DNA of 64,000 nt from Enterobacterales bacterium (GTDB lineage Bacteria > Pseudomonadota > Gammaproteobacteria > Enterobacterales > Kangiellaceae). Shown here piece by piece: positions 53,059 to 64,000 of this stretch (its first letter is position 1; each line of letters starts with the position of its first letter). A program made the position numbers and the translations under genes. The notes below the pieces were generated by a model. It was given only the letters and a program-made list of their open reading frames with translations, did no database searches and was not told where the DNA came from. Location of the stretch: positions 1 to 64,000 of the forward strand of contig JAUZSK010000013.1 in the NCBI GenBank assembly GCA_030949565.1. Reading direction: 5' to 3'.

Positions 53059-55046
53059 TTACAAATAGTAAAGCTGATATTCATAGTGATAAGCTTCAAT
53101 ATCATCGGCTGTTTGCCATAGCCCATCATTACCGCTAGCATCAAAAGCTTCTGATAGGACCCGAAATCCCTGTTGCCAGCTGTTCAACTCATAAAATTGC
53201 AGATCATCATCGGAAGTTAGCCATACTGCATCGACACCCGGCGCTCTAATAAATTTTTTCAGAGTCTGGTTACCCTGACTGTCATAAGCGAAGACAGACG
53301 CGCTATTGATTACATCATCCGTGGTAAACCAAACATTATCACTACCCATACCTGTATAAAACACCGCCTGAATAAGATTATTCGCGTTATCATAGGTATT
53401 GCTGACATAACTTGTTAGCGTATCATCACTGGTAAACCAGACGCCATCAGTGCCGGCACTTGAATAGTTATGTTTAGCCACTTGGTTATTATTTGCATCG
53501 TAGAAAAACTGTTGGTAGCGACTCACTGTATCATCAGCGGTATGAATAATGCCATCAGCACCAATATCTTGGTATGAGACACTCTTGATTTGATTGCCAT
53601 TAGCATCATAGGAAAAATCTCTCAAAAAGGCAATCTGATCATCGTTGGTTCCCCAAATACCATCAATACCAGCCGATGTACTACGAAAATAAAGATATCT
53701 AAGATCACTGTCTACAAAATAGAAATTCAAATTAGCACTGCTGATGGGATCATCGGCATTGCCCCAAACGCCATCAGTACCGGCAGATTCTATAGAGTAG
53801 TCGGCTTTTAGCTTATTAGTAGCGCTGTAAACTTTTCTGCTATAGCTAATGGCAATGTCATCCGATGTACCCCAGATTGTATCGGGACCCGCGCCAATGT
53901 AGTTAAGAAATTGGGTACGGTTTCCGTTGGCATCATATTGCATACTGAAGTATAGCGAAACGGGATCATCGTTGCTAAACCAAATACCGTCAGCCCCTGC
54001 GGATTGGTAGTTAAATATGCTAGTATTTTTACCATTTGCGTCATAGCCTTTGGTTTGATAGCTGGCAATTTGATCATCAGCATTGAACCAAATTTGGTCA
54101 GTGCCTGCGGAGCTGTAGCGGATGATTTTAACCACTAAACCAGAAGCATCATACTGATTTTCTGTGTAGCTACCGATAGTATCGTCAGCATTTTGCCAAA
54201 TACCATCGTTACCAGCATTGCTAAACCTAACCTCTTTCATTATTTTGCCGTAGAGGTTAATTTCATTCGCAGTGTAAGCCGTAATTAGCCCCGCTGCATC
54301 AAAACTAATAACTTTTGAGCGGCTAGCACCCTGAGCGGTCAACAGGATTACATTTACAGCAGCAGAGCTGACAGCTGTACCGGTTAGAGCGCCGCTAGTA
54401 GCGACAGGGGTTACTTCAAAACTAAGTGCTTTACCCATGTCTTCGGCGACCACTGTATAGTCAATCTGAGAAGCATTGCTAATCGCTACGCCATCTCTTA
54501 ACCAGCGAAAAATCGAATTACCTTCTGGATCTGCATTTTCATCACTGTAGTTATAGCTTCCTGTTAACAGATCACCAATAGTCACATCGCCCCCGTTATT
54601 ATCAACAATAGCTAGGTTGATGGCTTGTGGCGCGCTGTTTACGACGGTTAACGCGGTTGACGTGACTGCAACCCCCGTGGCGGTGCCGGTTACTGCGACG
54701 GGTGTTACGCGTAGCGTAATCTCGGTGTCAACATCTTGCTGACTAACCACATAGGTGAGCTGATTTGCCCCTGCAATTTCGTTAGTACCGCTTAGCCACT
54801 GAATAAGGCTATTGCCTTCAGCGTCATTTTCGGTGTCTGTATAAACATAGCTACCGTTTAATTGGTCACCGACTTCAAGGGCACCTCCATTGTCATCGGA
54901 AATAGTCACTTGAGTGGCTAGCGGCCCTTTATTTGTACGGGAGGCGGCGCTGCTGAACCACCTCCGCCGCCGCCACAGGCAATAAGCGTTAGACCCAATA
55001 GACTAGAACTAACCATTAGCATTGTTAATTTAAATAGTTTCTTCAT
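53059..55046 (-). pseudogene. Large repeat-rich surface lipoprotein, one frameshift
   Basis: The restored protein has about 662 residues. The ATG at 55044-55046 follows AGGAGG and opens a lipoprotein signal (LGLTLIACGGGGGG). Two Ig-like repeats follow (GDQLNGSYVYTDTENDAEGN and GDLLTGSYNYSDENADPEGN, each ~100 residues). Then come about eleven units of 30-35 residues with the pattern Y-D-A-N-G-N ... Y-x-S-A-G-T-D-G-V-W-x-x-x-D-D. The Asp/Gly-rich D-G-x-W-x-x-x-D-D loops look able to bind calcium. The frame breaks at the CCC/GGG run near 54939-54941; one more base joins AAPPP to NKGPLATQVTISDD. Function unknown; probably outer-membrane, surface-exposed. Confidence 0.75.
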
Positions 55047-55304
55047 TTTTTCCTCCTGGAAATCAATATAGATAATATTTCGACAAAAGTAGTGAATCCA
55101 ACTGATTATTTTTAGGTTGGATAACTGCTATGGTTTCTAGCATATTCTTTAGCCGAAATAGAAGCTTGAAACAACCGTGAAAGAACTTGAAACAACGTGA
55201 AACCTATATTTATCAGTGAGTTATAGAGTGTTATTTTGGGAGCTAGTGATTTTTATCGGCTTGTAGTTGAATAATTAACAAGCTTTTTTATAGGCAAATA
55301 AGGA

Positions 55305-56174
55305 TCAATGCTGAGTTTTATTGCCTTGAATAGCTTGATGCCGTTTTAGGTCTAATGCATTAAAATTAAATTGATTTAAACAGAATTCACATTTAACTGT
55401 GATTTTACCTTTTTCTTCGATCATTGATTGGATCTCCTCCACCGGAAACAAAGCCACCGAATCGAGCATTTTTTTCTTGCTACAGCCGCAATGAAACTTA
55501 ACCTCATCGAGCTGTAGATCGCGTACTTCTTCTTGATGAAAAAGTCGACTTAAAAGAACACTGGCATCAATCGATAGGCATTCTTCAGCAGTCAGAGTTT
55601 CTGCTAAATAAACCAGATGATCAAAAGAATCTTGGCTTAGCATATCGGGTAAGGCTTGCAGTAATAGGCCGCAGGATTGGCTATCATTATTAAACAACCA
55701 GATACGAGTTTTCAACTGCTCTGATAGATTGAAGTAGTCTTCTACACAGGCTGCAAAGGTGTCTTTATCAAGCGCCACATAGCCTTGATAGCGTTTACCT
55801 TTTTTGGGTTCAATGGTGATCGATAGTTGTCCGCCTTTGGTCAAATCAGAAAATGACATCCCATTGTAATCCGCTTGTTTGTCATAGCGAGCTATCCCTC
55901 GATAGCCTAGTTTGTGATTGGCTTGAACTACCAAAAGTTTCATTTTATTCGAGGTTTGAAGCTGTAAGGTCAAGCGACCTTCAAATTTAAGGGTGGTAGT
56001 CAATAATATAGTCACCGCAGCTACTTGATTTAGTAGATCAGCGATAGCGGGAGGATATTGATGACTTTGTAATAGACGCTGAACGGAGTCTTCTAGTTGT
56101 ACTAGCTCACCCCTAATACCAAAAGAGTCAAAAATAAATCGATGTATATTATCAGGCATAAATTGGGGTTTCAC
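55305..56174 (-). CDS. hslO: Redox-regulated chaperone Hsp33
   Basis: Hsp33 is a cytoplasmic holdase switched on by oxidants. The C-terminal zinc centre is complete: C-x-C in KFHCGCSKKKML and C-x2-C in VKCEFCLNQF, about 30 residues apart. The N-terminal domain has the family start FIFDSFGIRGELVQLEDSVQ and QVAAVTILLTTTLKFEGRL. The length of 289 is standard. It lies after the EF-G2 gene on the same strand, but the hairpin at 56245-56275 separates them. Confidence 0.95.
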   Translation of the reverse strand: MKPQFMPDNIHRFIFDSFGIRGELVQLEDSVQRLLQSHQYPPAIADLLNQVAAVTILLTTTLKFEGRLTLQLQTSNKMKLLVVQANHKLGYRGIARYDKQADYNGMSFSDLTKGGQLSITIEPKKGKRYQGYVALDKDTFAACVEDYFNLSEQLKTRIWLFNNDSQSCGLLLQALPDMLSQDSFDHLVYLAETLTAEECLSIDASVLLSRLFHQEEVRDLQLDEVKFHCGCSKKKMLDSVALFPVEEIQSMIEEKGKITVKCEFCLNQFNFNALDLKRHQAIQGNKTQH

Positions 56175-56244
56175 TGGATAAAGTAAAATTATAGCATCTC
56201 AATGATCAATAAAATTAACCAAATCGACATTTTGCAGACAAAAA

Positions 56245-56275
56245 ATAACCCCGAGAGCAAAACTTTCGGGGTTAT
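56245..56275 (-). terminator. Rho-independent terminator of fusA2
   Basis: ATAACCCCGAGAG pairs with CTTTCGGGGTTAT (13 pairs, one G-T) around CAAAA. Read on the minus strand it ends in TTTTTTGTC. It lies about 15 bases after the EF-G2 stop. Confidence 0.85.
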
Positions 56276-56290
56276 CGGCTAAAATAGAAT

Positions 56291-58375
56291 TTATTTTTTA
56301 GCGTTTCTTTCTTTTACTTCTTCGATGACCTTTTCAGCAACGCTGTTAGGGCAAGGCATATAGTGTGAGAATTCCATTGAGAACTGACCTCGACCAGAAG
56401 TCATGGTACGCAAACTTCCGATATAACCAAACATCTCAGATAGTGGCACATCGGCTTTAATTCTTACGCCCGTTACACCCGCTTCTTGATCTTTAATCAT
56501 GCCACGACGACGGTTTAAATCGCCGATAACATCACCAACATGATCGTCTGGCGTAAATACGTCAACTTTCATGATTGGCTCAATTAACTGAGGGCCCGCT
56601 TTAGGAATAGACTGACGGAAAGCGCCTTTTGCCGCAATTTCAAAAGCAACTGCAGAGGAGTCAACCGCATGGAATGAGCCATCAAACAATTCAATTTCAA
56701 CGTCTAACACAGGGAATCCGGCTAATACACCTTCTTCCATCATCAAACGGAAGCCTTTTTCAATCGCTGGCCAGAACTCCTTAGGAACGTTACCACCAAC
56801 AACCTTCGAGGTGAAAACATAGCCTGTACCAGGTTCACCCGGCTTGATACGGTAGTCGATTTTACCAAACTGACCCGAACCACCTGATTGCTTCTTATGA
56901 GTGTAGGAATCTTCGATTTCTTTTGTTATAGTTTCACGGTAAGCCACTTGTGGTTCGCCGACTTCTAGTTCAACACCGTAGGTACGCTTCAAGATATCGA
57001 CTTTGATATCCAAGTGAAGCTCTCCCATACCTTTTAGGATGGTATCGCCAGTTTCTTGATCCGATTCAACGATGAAAGTAGGATCTTCTGCCACCATTTT
57101 ACCAATCGCAATACCCATTTTCTCAGAACCACCTTTATCTTTAGGGGTTACAGCGATTGAAATAACTGGCTGAGGGAAAACCATTGGTTCAAGTGTACAA
57201 ACATTTTTTGGATCACAAAGGGTATGACCGGTTTGTACGTTTTTCATGCCTACGATGGCAATAATATCGCCGGCTTGAGCACGGTTAAGTTCGGTACGCT
57301 CATCGGCATGCATTTCAACCATACGGCCAATACGCTCGGTTTTACCGGTAAAAGAGTTCAACAGAGTATCGCCTTTATTGATAACACCTGAATAAACTCG
57401 AACAAAGGTTAGTGCGCCAAAACGGTCATCCATAATTTTAAAAGCAAGCGCTCGTACCGGCTCATCAGGAGAAACGATAGCAAATTCACCGGTAGGAGTA
57501 CCTTCTTCATCGGTTAATGGTTGTGGATCAACTTCGGTGGGTGATGGTAGATAGTCAACAACCGCGTCAAGAATATTCTGCACACCTTTATCTTTAAAGG
57601 CGCTACCACAATAAGTGGGGAAGAAATCGAGTTTCCGTGTACCTTCACGAACGCAGCGTTTAATGTCGTCAATAGAGGGAACTTCACCTTCTAAGTAAGC
57701 TTCCATTAAGTCATCATCCTGATCGAGTGCCGTTTCGATGAGCATTTCGCGGTATTCTGCAACTTTGTCGAGCATATCTTCAGGTACATCACCAATTTCA
57801 AAATCTTCTGGTGCGCCACTTTCACCCCAAATGTAGGATTGTTGAGTTAAAATGTCGACCACACCGACGAAATCATCTTCAATACCGATAGGCAGTGTCA
57901 TAACTAATGGACTAGCGCCCAATACGTCTTCAACCTGTTTAACAACCCGGTAGAAATCTGCGCCCATACGATCAAGCTTGTTGACAAAAATAATACGAGC
58001 CACTTCCGAATCATTGGCGTAACGCCAGTTAGTTTCTGATTGAGGTTCAACACCACCACTGCCACAGAAAACGCCAACACCGCCATCAAGCACTTTTAAT
58101 GAACGATACACTTCAACCGTAAAATCAACGTGTCCTGGCGTATCGATGATGTTCAATCGATGATCTTTCCAAAAACAAGTGGTTGCAGCCGATTGAATGG
58201 TGATGCCTCGCTCCGCTTCTTGTTCCATAAAGTCAGTGGTTGATTCACCATCATGAACTTCACCGGTTTTATGGATTTTACCCGTTAGCTTTAAAATTCG
58301 CTCTGTAGTGGTTGTTTTGCCAGCGTCAACGTGGGCAAATATACCAATATTTCTGTATTTGCTTAAATCAGTCAT
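56291..58375 (-). CDS. fusA2: Elongation factor G, second paralogue (EF-G2)
   Basis: The protein has 694 residues. All G motifs are present ([50 protein letters not shown]), as are domain III-V blocks ending [18 protein letters not shown]. It differs clearly from the str-operon EF-G (for example [20 protein letters not shown]) and belongs to the additional EF-G type found in Pseudomonas and Vibrio relatives. It may specialise in recycling or stress, or give fusidic acid tolerance; this is inference. Monocistronic with its own terminator. Start is the ATG at 58373-58375. Confidence 0.92.
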
Positions 58376-58595
58376 CTTGTTACTCTGTTTTAGGTTAAAT
58401 TCGGATTGTTTTTGTCAAATATCCGGTTAAAAAGTCTTACTAAATTTGGGTCGCCCATGCGAAAGGCGCGCATTATACACTAGATAGTGGGCTAGGTGCA
58501 CTGGCTTTTGCATAAAAATTAAACAAAATCGAGTTATTTGGATATGATGCTGGTTAAACTTGAAAACGGAAGGTCTATGGAAACATATAAGCTAC

Positions 58596-59082
58596 TTATT
58601 TAGATGTGGGAGGGGTGTTTTCAAAGATTAGTTGAATTTTTCGATTGGCTAAATATTTTTTTAACAGTGTGAAGTACTTAATGTTTCCGATATAGAGGAT
58701 TTCTAGCCCTTTTAAATCTTCCTCTTTCAATTTATCGATGGCTTGCATAAGAATTCGAGCGGTTCTCTTTGGATCTCTTCCAGATACAGCAATAGAACGT
58801 CCGGATTGATGTGCCGATTGCAAAAGTAGAATAAGGGTTTGTGCATTACCGTTTTGAACCTCAACTAAATTAGTTTCCTTCCGTTCGCCATTGCCGACTA
58901 TTGCTAGCTGACCGTACTTAGATGAATCAAAGTACAGGTGTTTTTTTCCCAAACGATCTTGTGCAAGTTGCATACGGTCTGAAAGGTTGTCATCTAGGTA
59001 GGGGGGGTGGTGTTAATTGGCAGCTTGAAGCCAAAATAACTAAAACTGATATAAAAAATATTTCTTTCAAAAATAGGGACAT
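58596..59082 (-). pseudogene. Small lipoprotein with a C7 tract after the lipobox
   Basis: The ATG at 59080-59082 gives MSLFLKEIFFISVLVI then a lipobox LASSC, followed by QLTPPP. The proline codons form a run of seven C (59001-59007 as G on the plus strand). With seven the frame ends a few codons later; with six it continues YLDDNLSDRMQLAQDRLGKK to a 161-residue protein ending IFENTPPTSK. The mature part is hydrophilic and ends with a fold I do not recognise (SIAVSGRDPKRTARILMQAI, GLEILYIGNIKYF). Slippage at this tract could switch the lipoprotein on and off, or the extra base may be a sequencing error. An internal ATG at 58973 lacks a ribosome site. Confidence 0.65.
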
Positions 59083-59180
59083 TTCTAATCCAAAGAGTGC
59101 GTTATTTAAGTCCGATGATATAACTGTTTTGATTGATTTTCCAACTCTTTAAATAACAACTAACAAAACAATAAAAGTGC

Positions 59181-59211
59181 TTGACATTTAATTGATGGGG
59201 GGGGGTAACAT
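59181..59211 (+). promoter_or_regulatory. Promoter with a nine-G tract in its spacer
   Basis: A consensus TTGACA (59181-59186) and TAACAT (59206-59211) are 19 bases apart, and the spacer ends in nine consecutive G (59197-59205). With seven G the spacing would be the optimal 17. A ribosome site (GGGAG, 59243-59247) and an ATG (59253) follow. This is the original start region of the Cys-rich gene now separated by the IS. Confidence 0.55.
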
Positions 59212-59253
59212 CGTCGTCGGTATTTTAATTTAACTAAAAAAAGGGAGTTCTTA

Positions 59254-59262
59254 TGAATACTA
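59254..59262 (+). repeat. Left target-site duplication of the ISAs1-type element
   Basis: TGAATACTA directly precedes the IS end (CAGGGCAA) and is repeated exactly after its other end (60466-60474). It lies inside ATG AAT ACT, the first codons of the interrupted gene. Confidence 0.85.
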
Positions 59263-60465
59263 CAGGGCAAGATCGTACTTTATTGAACTTTTAGGTAAAT
59301 TGGTGATCAGATCAGTATCAACCACGAGGAGATACTGCTATGACATTTATAGACCATTTTACTTCAATAGAAGATCCACGAACGAATATTAACGTTAAAC
59401 ATGACCTTTTAGATGTGCTATTTTTAACGGTAAGTGCTGTATTATCAGGTGCAGAAGGCTGGAAGGACATTAAAGAGTTTGGCGATAACAAGCTCGATTG
59501 GCTAAGACAATATAGAGACTTTAAAAACGGAATACCGGTCGATGACACCATTGCTCGGATCATAAGGGCAACCGAGCCTGCACAATTAAACCAGGCATTT
59601 ATTAATTGGGTTAATGAAGTGAGGGTCGATAAGGGGCAAGAACAAATAGCGCTTGATGGAAAACATTACGCCGTTCATTTGATGGAGATAGGCAAAACCG
59701 CATTACACAGTATTACCGCTTGGAGTCGCTCACAAGGATTGGTTCTTGCTCAATTAAAATCGACGGGTAAAAAAAATGAAAATGCTTCGGTTATTGACAT
59801 GCTCAATGTGCTGAATATCAAAGGTGCGTTGATAAGCGCCGATGCGATGAATACACAGAAAAAATCGTCAATACTATTGTTGAAAAGAAAGCGGACTATG
59901 TGCTTTGTGTCAAATTGAACCATAAGAAATACGTCATGAAATTGCCGGTTATTTCCATAAAATCAAAAGAGAAACACCTGAGTTTATTGAAGAGTTTGAG
60001 GAAGTTGATAGTGGTCATGGTCGCATTGAAGCTAGGAAATATAGGCAACTCAGAGAGTGAATGAATGGATTAGTGAGGCGAGTAATTGGTCCAATATTCA
60101 AACGGTTATTGAGGTTGAGCGAGAGCGACATTTTAAAGGTGAAGTGGTGCAGCAAGAAACCTTGTATTACATTAGTTCTTTGGCGCCGGATGTGGAAAGA
60201 ATAGGTAAAGCCATTCGCAGTCATTGGGAGTGGAAAGCACCCATTGGATCCCTTGATGTGACGTTTAAAGAAGATGACTGTCGGATCCGAAATGGTGACG
60301 GAGCTGAAAATGTTGCTGTTATCCGACGATTTGCTTTGAACTTAACGAAACTACACCCTCAAAAAAATAGTATGAGAGGTAAATTGAAGCAGGCAGGATG
60401 GAGTGATAAATTTCGCTCTGAACTAATTTTTGGTCAAAATTAGTACAAAGTATGCGGTTGCCCTG
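59263..60465 (+). mobile_element. ISAs1-family insertion sequence, complete but with a damaged transposase
   Basis: The element is 1203 bases. Its ends are inverted repeats: left CAGGGCAAGATCGTACTTTA and, as reverse complement, right CAGGGCAACCGCATACTTTG, 16 of 20 matching. It is flanked by an exact 9-bp duplication, in the range usual for ISAs1 elements. It carries a single transposase gene. The intact duplication shows simple transposition without later rearrangement. Confidence 0.88.
59340..60443 (+). pseudogene. ISAs1-family DDE transposase with several frameshifts
   Basis: The N-terminal DDE_Tnp_1-associated part (FIDHFTSIEDPRTNINVKHD) and catalytic region (QIALDGKHYAVHLM, ALISADAMNTQKK) are in frame. 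Then the frame breaks at an A6 run (59859-59864), near 59930 (after NHKKY) and near 60050 (after RKYRQL). Further indels around 60225-60255 turn the expected SHWGxEN-LHW motif into SHWEWKAPIG. The end (LDVTFKEDDCRIRNGDGAEN, VIRRFALNL) is typical of the family. The GAGGAGATACTGCT sequence before 59340 is a good ribosome site. As written, no active transposase can be made. Confidence 0.85.
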
Positions 60466-60662
60466 TGAATACTAAAAAACTAATATTATCGGTATTTGCC
60501 GCGACTATAATTAATGTTACAATGGCGATACCAACTGAAGATGATGATGGAATTCGTTGTAACTCTGGAGGTTGTAGCGATGTTGTTACAACGCCCCGTG
60601 GGACCTGGGTTTGTGATAGTGACGGTTGTCGTTTTTTTCCAGTTAGGACTGAAAGAAAGTAA
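60465..60662 (+). CDS. Tiny secreted four-cysteine protein, start rebuilt by the IS insertion
   Basis: The protein has 65 residues: a signal peptide (LILSVFAATIINVTMA) then a ~44-residue acidic mature part with two C-x4-C pairs, CNSGGC and CDSDGC. These could form disulfides or bind a metal in the periplasm. I do not recognise the family. The natural start was the ATG at 59253, now 1.2 kb upstream. Here the last G of the IS and the TG of the target duplication form GTG, in frame with AAT ACT AAA AAA. No ribosome site is obvious before it (TTGCCCTG), so expression is probably poor. The membrane-anchored gene 60685-61344 follows after 22 bases. Confidence 0.6.
   Translation: MNTKKLILSVFAATIINVTMAIPTEDDDGIRCNSGGCSDVVTTPRGTWVCDSDGCRFFPVRTERK
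60466..60474 (+). repeat. Right target-site duplication of the ISAs1-type element
   Basis: TGAATACTA, an exact copy of 59254-59262, directly after the IS right end. It supplies the TG of the new start codon. Confidence 0.85.
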
Positions 60663-60684
60663 TTTTATAGGGTAAGAGCTCAAA

Positions 60685-61344
60685 ATGAATAAAGTATTTA
60701 TAGGTATCGTTAGTTTACTTGTCGCTCTTGCCCTTTATATAAGCTTGAACCAAGATCATGAGCTCAAAAACAATCCAATTATTTTACATAATGTGTCAGA
60801 TAAAATTGATAAACTGGATAATGCTATTCCACAAAAAATGGAAGTACAAAAGACACTATCAAAACAAGCATCAGTATCTAAAAACAGCCAAGTAGTGAAT
60901 AGCAAACTTAAACCACAAAATACTAATTATCCACTTGCTGAAGCTATGTCTGCTGAAGCTATGCAAGATTTAGCAAAAATATTAGAAAGACAAAATCAAA
61001 TGGTATCGAAGAAATTCACATCCAATAACGAATGGTATGGTGTATTTCAAGTGGATGATTATTCTGAGTGGGGATACCATTTGTCAGAAAAATTTAACGA
61101 AAAAATTCTGAATGACAAAATATGGCAAGAACGACCGGTGGAGCTACTTTCTGCAGATTGTCGTACCCGTTTTTGCAAAATTTCTTTCCGTGTTGATGAT
61201 GATATTCCTGTGAAAGATAGAAACTTTTTTTATCCAGATTTGTTGCAAAATATCGATGAAGCAAATTTAAAATCAGCAGTGTTTTATGATTCTGAAACCG
61301 GTGAACTTAATATATACGCTGAACGATGTATCGACTGTGAATAA
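60685..61344 (+). CDS. Membrane-anchored periplasmic protein with paired cysteines, function unknown
   Basis: The protein has 219 residues. One N-terminal helix (VFIGIVSLLVALALYISL) acts as an anchor or signal. A low-complexity linker of ~60 residues follows, then a C-terminal domain of ~130 residues with SADCRTRFCKISFRVDDD and a terminal CIDCE. The C-x4-C pair before a beta strand resembles a hypothetical family in gammaproteobacteria whose role I do not know. It follows the tiny four-cysteine protein, suggesting an envelope pair with shared redox or metal chemistry. The ATG at 60685 is preceded by AGGGTAAGAG. Intact reading frame. Confidence 0.65.
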   Translation: MNKVFIGIVSLLVALALYISLNQDHELKNNPIILHNVSDKIDKLDNAIPQKMEVQKTLSKQASVSKNSQVVNSKLKPQNTNYPLAEAMSAEAMQDLAKILERQNQMVSKKFTSNNEWYGVFQVDDYSEWGYHLSEKFNEKILNDKIWQERPVELLSADCRTRFCKISFRVDDDIPVKDRNFFYPDLLQNIDEANLKSAVFYDSETGELNIYAERCIDCE

Positions 61345-61374
61345 AACTGTTCTATAAGATGCGGAATTGCCCAT

Positions 61375-61797
61375 TTAATCACTTGATATCTGTTTAAACC
61401 GATGAATCTGCCTTCTTTGCTTTTTATCCGGTTTGCCTTGGGTTTTGGGTGCGCCAATTTTTCGCATTTCTGCTATTTGTAAGCGTTTTTGGATGCTTTC
61501 TTCGGTTTCTTGGTACAGGGTTTGAGCAATGCTGGCGGATTGTCGGCGTTCTGAAAGACCTTTGACAACGACTGTTTTTTCATCGAAACCTTGTCTCAGT
61601 TTAACCTGGTGATCTAGCTGAACACAGCGGCTCGGTTTGCATTTATGCCCCTGATAATCCACCTTTCCACCGTCAATTGCGGCTTTGGCCAATGCTCTGG
61701 TTTTATAAAATCGGCAGGCCCAAAGCCATTTATCAATACGAATATTGGTATCGGGTTGGTTGTAGTTGGCTTTTGTCGGTGATTTGGATGATTTCAT
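61375..61797 (-). CDS. hslR: Heat shock protein Hsp15 (S4-domain, ribosome recycling)
   Basis: Hsp15 binds 50S subunits carrying stalled nascent chains. The S4 RNA-binding domain is IRIDKWLWACRFYKTRALAK, then AAIDGGKVDYQGHKCKPSR, followed by a basic C-terminal tail (KIGAPKTQGKPDKKQRRQIH). The protein has 140 residues, similar to E. coli HslR with a ~15-residue N-terminal extension. It is convergent with the preceding gene and has 30 bases between the stops. Confidence 0.93.
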   Translation of the reverse strand: MKSSKSPTKANYNQPDTNIRIDKWLWACRFYKTRALAKAAIDGGKVDYQGHKCKPSRCVQLDHQVKLRQGFDEKTVVVKGLSERRQSASIAQTLYQETEESIQKRLQIAEMRKIGAPKTQGKPDKKQRRQIHRFKQISSD

Positions 61798-62176
61798 AGC
61801 TATTTTGATCTTTATTAACCCTTTTTAATCCTTTTGTCGTTTATTTAAGTCAGGTTATCTTAATTGGCTTCGATGAGATTAGTATTGAAGGCTAATAATG
61901 TTTCTAATGCTCAAAATGGTCAAGTGAAATTCTAAATTAGACTAAAATGCAGGGGTTTTTGGGAGTAAATGCATCAATTTTGGTAAAGATTGCATCGACT
62001 GTGTCTTTTTAACGGTTTCATAGGTTAAATATTGGCATGATTTGGGTTAAACTAGTCCGGTTGCGTCAGCTAAGTTAGATGGCAGGCGCCCCATAGGTGC
62101 GTAATAGAGGCTACTTTGGTAAATGACGCGTTATTTTATCAGTCTCACGCCCTTTTTTATGGTTTATTAGGAATTT
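61798..62176. other. Intergenic region before gspC
   Basis: This stretch separates two divergent genes, hslR and gspC. It contains T-rich tracts and a short GCGCC/AGGTGC inverted repeat (near 62084-62099). I see no clear promoter boxes and no coding frame. Confidence 0.5.
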
Positions 62177-63094
62177 ATGAAGTTATCCACTGACAATTTA
62201 ATCGCTTGGGGTAAAAACTACAGTAATTGGTTACCTGTTATCCAGTGGACCGGTTGGTTCACCCTTTGCCTTATTCTGGCCAAGTTATTTTGGGCATTAA
62301 CCATGCACTTTACAGCCGCAAGTCCAAGTCTTCAGCTTGGACCGATTAAACAAGTTAGTCAGAGCAAATCGACAACCGCAATCAATGTGAAGCCTTTAAT
62401 TGAAAAACACTTATTTGGTAGTAGCGATCAACCGATGTCGGTGGTGGTTGAAGATGTGGTTGAAAGAGTCACTCAACTAAACCTCAAGTTAAGAGGTATC
62501 TATGCGGCCAGTAATCCCTCACGTTCTAATTCGATTATTGAAGATGGCAAAGGCAAGCAAGCGGTTTATTTTATTGGTGACTCACTCAATGTATCGGGGC
62601 GAGTGTTCTTGCGACAGGTTTACCGTGACCGAGTTATTTTAGAAACCAATGGTGTGAAAGAAGTGTTAAAGCTAAAAGATGATATTCCAGGTGTTCGATC
62701 GCCACTTTCTAGCATCCAGTCCAAATTGAGTAAGAAAATCCGTAAAGTACAGGATAAAAGAAAAAATCAGATGATTACTCGCTCGCTGAGTAAATATAAA
62801 AAACAGCTGAAAGAAAACCCTGTGAGTTTAGTCGGGATCGTTAACTATCGTCCCAAGTTAGAAAATGGTGAAATGATCGGCATAGAAATTTCACCGGGTA
62901 AAGATAAACGCTTATTTACTCAGTTAGGGCTAAGACGTAAGGATGTTATCACCGCAATCAATGGTGTGGCCTTAGATAATATACAAAATGCAATGAACCT
63001 GTTGTCGGATATCGGAAATATGCGTGAACTACAGGTTGATATCAAACGAGAAAATGAATCGGTTAATTTGTTAGTGAATTTGGATGAAAAGTAG
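62177..63094 (+). CDS. gspC: Type II secretion system inner-membrane protein GspC
   Basis: GspC links the inner-membrane platform to the GspD secretin and helps choose substrates. The protein has 305 residues: a short cytoplasmic start, one membrane helix (WTGWFTLCLILAKLFWALT), the periplasmic HR domain (IEKHLFGSSDQ, NLKLRGIYAAS, QAVYFIGDSLNVSGRVFLRQ) and a C-terminal PDZ-like domain (FTQLGLRRKDVITAINGVAL). It is the first gene of an operon with gspD 18 bases downstream. The ATG is preceded by a weak AGGAATTT. Confidence 0.92.
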   Translation: MKLSTDNLIAWGKNYSNWLPVIQWTGWFTLCLILAKLFWALTMHFTAASPSLQLGPIKQVSQSKSTTAINVKPLIEKHLFGSSDQPMSVVVEDVVERVTQLNLKLRGIYAASNPSRSNSIIEDGKGKQAVYFIGDSLNVSGRVFLRQVYRDRVILETNGVKEVLKLKDDIPGVRSPLSSIQSKLSKKIRKVQDKRKNQMITRSLSKYKKQLKENPVSLVGIVNYRPKLENGEMIGIEISPGKDKRLFTQLGLRRKDVITAINGVALDNIQNAMNLLSDIGNMRELQVDIKRENESVNLLVNLDEK

Positions 63095-63112
63095 CAATCG
63101 AGTGGTGTTTTA

Positions 63113-64000
63113 ATGACAAATATAAGAAGTTTAAACAATTATAAAAAAGGATGGAATTTGGTGTCTAGACAATTTGTTCAAAAATTGAGTTTTGCACTCT
63201 TATTATCGATATTTATATCCTCGACCGCTATAGCCGACAAGGCAACCATCAATCAAAAAGATACCGATATCGGTGTTTTTATTGAAATGGTCAGTCGCTT
63301 AACCGGAAAAACCTTTATCGTCGATCCACGGGTTCGGAATAAAAAAATTACCGTTATTTCACAGCACGAAATGGACGAGAAGGAAATCTTCGCGTTATTT
63401 TTAAGCGTACTTAAGGTGCATCAGTTTGCAGCGGTTAAAACCGGTAATGTTTATAAAATAGAGCAACTCCAAACCGCCAAGCAAGATTCGGTTTCAGTCT
63501 ATACTAAAGGCCAAAAATACGATGGTGACCAATTAGTTACGCGAGTGATTAAAGTTGATAATGTTGATGTGGCGATGTTGGTGCCTTTGCTTAGAACATT
63601 GATCCCTCAACAAGGACACATGGCACAATACAAGCCAACCAATGTGATTGTTATCCATGATACTTCGGCAAACCTTGAGCGTATTGTTAAAATTATTCGT
63701 AAAATTGATAAAGAAAGTAATGAAGAAATCCAAGTAATTGAATTAGAACATGCGTCAGCGACCGAAGTGGTTCGCATCTTACAAAGTCTGGAAAAACAAA
63801 ATAGTGGCGCTAAAAAGGCCAATGCCAGAAAACCAAAGTTTGTTGCGGACGAAAGAACTAATAGTATTTTACTCAGCGCCGATAAAAAAGCGTCTATCCG
63901 ATTAAGAGCTTTAATTGCACAACTCGATTCACCACAGAAAAATTCTGGTAACACCAAGGTTCGTCATCTGCGCTATGCTAAAGCGGAAGATCTCGCTACG
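63113..64000 (+). CDS. gspD: Type II secretion system secretin GspD, N-terminal part
   Basis: The frame is open for 296 codons from the ATG at 63113 to the window end. A signal sequence (LSFALLLSIFISSTAIA) is followed by the N0 domain (DTDIGVFIEMVSRLTGKTFI, VDPRVRNKKITVIS) and N1/N2 domains (RVIKVDNVDVAMLVPLLRTL, VIELEHASATEVVRILQSL, FVADERTNSILLSADKKA). It forms the outer-membrane channel of type II secretion. The C-terminal secretin domain lies outside the window. An in-frame GTG further in (at VSRQFVQKL) could also start the protein. Confidence 0.93.
   Translation, partial: MTNIRSLNNYKKGWNLVSRQFVQKLSFALLLSIFISSTAIADKATINQKDTDIGVFIEMVSRLTGKTFIVDPRVRNKKITVISQHEMDEKEIFALFLSVLKVHQFAAVKTGNVYKIEQLQTAKQDSVSVYTKGQKYDGDQLVTRVIKVDNVDVAMLVPLLRTLIPQQGHMAQYKPTNVIVIHDTSANLERIVKIIRKIDKESNEEIQVIELEHASATEVVRILQSLEKQNSGAKKANARKPKFVADERTNSILLSADKKASIRLRALIAQLDSPQKNSGNTKVRHLRYAKAEDLAT

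Follow-up and report, generated by a model that had tools for sequence, protein, structure and literature searches.

Homopolymer tracts between the -35 and -10 boxes of promoters are well described for the genes porA, fetA, and opc (PMC2791445, PMC3639595). The porA tracts described comprise 9–11 G; changing one or two G altered surface expression up to 13-fold, and shortening the tract from 11G to 9G lowered it about 13-fold (PMC3639595). For phase variation in Kangiella, no paper was found in the literature. In this study, we analyzed a stretch of 64,000 nucleotides (the window) from GCA_030949565.1, a Kangiellaceae genome of 3.58 Mb, in which a promoter-like sequence beginning at position 59181 carries a run of nine G (G9). 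It shares with porA of Neisseria meningitidis the poly-G in the -35/-10 spacer and the putative association with a gene for an exported protein. Variation and expression change were shown for porA (PMC3639595), whereas the promoter at 59181 is represented by one assembled length, its gene is cut off by an insertion sequence (IS), and no relative was found in the searches described below. Also Neisseria opc and fetA have a homopolymer between the -35 and -10 boxes (PMC2791445), but these encode known surface proteins with demonstrated variation, while the putative products of the locus at 59181 are ORFans known from sequence.

The promoter-like sequence lies on the forward strand and consists of the hexamer TTGACA (59181–59186), identical to the -35 consensus (6/6), a spacer of 19 nt (59187–59205) composed of TTTAATTGAT and the G9 tract, and the -10-like hexamer TAACAT (59206–59211), which agrees with TATAAT in 4 of 6 positions (T1, A2, A5, and T6 kept). 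The tract (59197–59205, length as assembled) forms the 3′ end of the spacer and thereby provides the homopolymer of at least eight bases between the two boxes that characterizes a spacer-tract promoter. A Shine-Dalgarno-like AGGGAG (59241–59246) and the original ATG of a small gene (59253–59255) follow on the same strand. The first-pass annotation had placed TTGACA and TAACAT 19 bases apart with G9 closing the spacer, and had reckoned that G7 would give a spacer of 17 nt; the bases read at 59181–59211 agree with the former and the arithmetic of the latter is right. A second G-run, G7 (59001–59007, forward strand), precedes the G9 tract by 190 bases.

In our interpretation, this promoter is a relic that once belonged to a two-gene operon specific to the lineage; the operon lay in an ORFan islet between fusA and hsp15 and was later cut by an ISAs1 element. 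To this reading as a whole, including promoter activity and the predicted export of the operon's products, we assign a probability of about 0.6. According to it, the promoter would be of the sigma-70 type, with its -35 perfect, its -10 weak, and its spacer lengthened to 19 nt by G9, and would once have served an operon for a secreted 65-aa protein with four Cys and an anchored or secreted 219-aa protein. An ISAs1-family element then inserted right where the coding sequence begins; promoter and Shine-Dalgarno sequence now point into this element, and the small ORF is stranded behind it, whole and with a GTG start. Due to the overlong spacer and the weak -10, the promoter is expected to be weak at the G9 length, and slippage in the length of the G-run would shift the -35/-10 spacing. 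The reading is supported by the boxes, the Shine-Dalgarno sequence, and the ATG following each other in order on one strand, and by the target-site duplication, the IS ends, the transposase match, the open 65-aa frame, and the fusA–hsp15 distances described below; we consider the TTGACA/TAACAT pair more probably a real promoter than not. Counted against it are the 4/6 match of the -10 hexamer and the frequency of promoter-like sites, which in the region 55000–64000 show no excess over shuffled sequence; among the 38 TTGACA of the window, 7 are paired with a -10-like hexamer at 15–20 nt, so that such pairs are common.

The distance between fusA and hsp15 is 3.0 kb in this genome and about 220–280 bp in three genomes of the same genus (G002, G004, and G005), from which the islet of about 2.7 kb is absent. 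It contains a minus-strand ORF of 125 aa (58596–58973), divergent from the promoter, followed by the promoter itself, the small gene with the IS, and a 219-aa ORF. No protein family was matched by the 65-, 125-, or 219-aa products, and there was no Rfam match in the islet. The 65-aa product (60465–60662, forward strand, GTG start at the IS junction) has a signal-peptide-like N-terminus and four Cys. The 219-aa product (60685–61344, forward strand) has a hydrophobic helix at its N-terminus, with four Cys in the C-terminal part, and is predicted to be secreted or anchored; its structure prediction was of low confidence (pLDDT 45) and too poor for a structure search. The 219-aa frame starts 22 bases past the end of the 65-aa gene, and this short gap suggests that the original unit was a two-gene operon to which both genes probably belonged. 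In its present position behind the IS, the 65-aa ORF has no evident ribosome-binding site or promoter.

Sister loci were sought at the DNA and protein levels. Neither the locus by DNA nor the 65-aa protein was found among 60 relatives, and a search of 394 genomes of the order for the 219-aa protein gave no relative. Within the genus and the family neither protein was found, and the genome collection and plasmids yielded no relative of either. No genome searched carries the locus for a comparison of tract length with sister strains.

The IS, an element of 1203 bp (59263–60465, forward strand) with imperfect terminal inverted repeats (CAGGGCAA...), is flanked by a target-site duplication TGAATACTA with its left copy at 59254–59262 and its right copy at 60466–60474. 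The duplication is perfect over 9 bp, and the ends of the element are the same as those of the other copies, of which the genome holds about 15 in total. Target duplications of the ISAs1 family have 8–10 bp, and they are present at most other copies in this genome, too. One copy (L020) encodes an intact transposase of 367 aa matching NF033564 (transpos_ISAs1) at 6e-115; in the window copy a DDE_Tnp_1_assoc match was obtained and the transposase frame is broken as assembled. With regard to transposase, terminal inverted repeats, and short target duplications the element is an ordinary member of the family, but its copy in the window parts a promoter from its gene and rebuilds a GTG start. The duplication begins at base 2 of the original ATG. 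The IS breaks into ATGAATACTA, which continues from 60466, so the anatomy behind the earlier proposal that the promoter formerly served the gene of a very small, secreted protein rich in Cys holds. At the right-hand junction, the last base of the IS (G) and the TG of the duplication form the GTG at 60465–60467, and thereby the whole 65-aa frame survives. The reading frame now found downstream of promoter and Shine-Dalgarno sequence comprises 13 aa (MNTTGQDRTLLNF) and then runs into the IS transposase. Only in the arrangement before the insertion would the promoter have been directly upstream of the small gene; today the 1203-bp element lies between them, so a switch would be left with nothing intact to regulate, with entry into the IS as the one possible exception. 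Elsewhere in the genome, the flanks of the IS copies L006 and L017 look swapped (CACTAAAGGA and TAATTCACCC at opposite ends), a pattern that recombination between two copies or a misjoin in the assembly would produce.

Alternatively, a G-run without function may have come to lie beside promoter-like hexamers by chance in the AT-rich, decaying DNA of the islet, which we consider rather unlikely but the most serious competitor of the relic promoter. Dinucleotide shuffles of the window contained on average 0.53 G8 matches, and at least two such matches, as given by one G9, occurred in 9 of 100 shuffles; taken alone, the G9 run is thus marginal. A chance origin is also favored by the promoter-like sites being at chance level and by the second run (G7) close by. 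The genome contains five G9 runs, one G8 run, and none longer, and the other four G9 runs lie in unrelated settings, namely a phage-like region, an intergenic gap, the vicinity of a contig start, and the inside of a reading frame. What speaks against chance is the combination: when G9 was set at every position across 139 kb of the genome, an exact TTGACA plus a -10-like box surrounded it with a probability of 5.5e-4 per tract and strand, corresponding to about 0.5% over all five G9 runs and both strands, a value computed post hoc with the arrangement already seen. Here, Shine-Dalgarno sequence and ATG follow downstream in addition.

General G-tract contingency loci were considered as well and ruled out, since the other G9 runs share no promoter layout. 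Four of the five G9 runs directly precede TAA and the fifth precedes ATAA (59197–59205; C5:88487, C41:17904, C50:348, and C72:68119), while TAA follows about 3% of G4–G5 runs and 0 of 14 distinct G7–G8 runs seen. Two of the five have a G7 or C7 at most 200 bases away (59001–59007/59197–59205 and C41:17904/C41:18058); G7 runs are rare, with about 15 in the genome.

The first-pass annotation had proposed a possible phase-variable switch. Slipped-strand mispairing of the G9 tract by one or two bases would alternate the spacer between a weak 19-nt form and a strong form of 18 or 17 nt, and a subpopulation would express the secreted operon, either in ancestors or in IS-free cells. Its spacer-tract anatomy, which resembles that of porA, opc, and fetA (PMC2791445, PMC3639595), stood up, as did the spacer arithmetic and the lost link to a small gene whose predicted secretion would make it a typical kind of target. 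The variation of the tract itself did not gain support, as there is a single assembled sequence and no relative with the locus among the genomes searched. Furthermore, G9 is at the short end of the 9–11 G described for porA (PMC3639595), mutS is present in the genome, so that nothing points to elevated slippage, the remaining four G9 runs lie outside such spacers, and the gene is detached from the promoter in this genome. An on/off length switch at G9 is possible, and overall we judge the phase-variable reading unlikely.

The assembled length has to be considered, too. Among 13 near-identical IS copies, 28 indel cells were counted versus 15 substitutions, with most indels in short homopolymers, and at two A-tracts all four length combinations were present, so the length changes are recurrent. 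As assembled, the transposase frame is intact in 1 of 14 full-length ISAs1 copies (L002–L008, L017–L023) and broken in the others mainly by differences in homopolymer length, probably representing assembly errors in repeats. Recurrent indels together with IS copies inside contigs are typical of the homopolymer errors that long reads leave behind in repeats, from which we infer a long-read assembly. Uncorrected long-read consensus in repeats is known to leave such errors (PMC8812927). No frameshifts versus relatives were found in the conserved unique genes near the site, namely hslO, fusA, hsp15, gspC, part of gspD, and a second fusA, and G9 as the assembled length is therefore plausible. A general homopolymer cap at 9 (G9 common, G10 absent) was ruled out by A-runs of at least 10. 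That the assembly gives a wrong tract length, so that the true spacer may be a normal one of 17 or 18 nt, as the pattern in the IS copies would allow, is the least likely alternative, because the G9 tract lies in unique, apparently well-corrected DNA 57 bases from the IS and A-runs of 10 and more were kept.

For use of GCA_030949565.1, this means that homopolymer lengths in its repeats are unreliable and that the regulated gene is detached from its promoter. By analogy with porA, a switch of this type may have run a secreted operon confined to this lineage, in a gammaproteobacterium for which no such switch is known to be described, and the IS may later have locked the operon off with its frame whole; we regard this course of events as improbable. 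If it were true, clean loss of the IS would put the operon back under the switch. If the tract varied, the locus would add another example of promoter-spacer phase variation in an organism other than a host-adapted pathogen, acting on an ORFan secreted operon.
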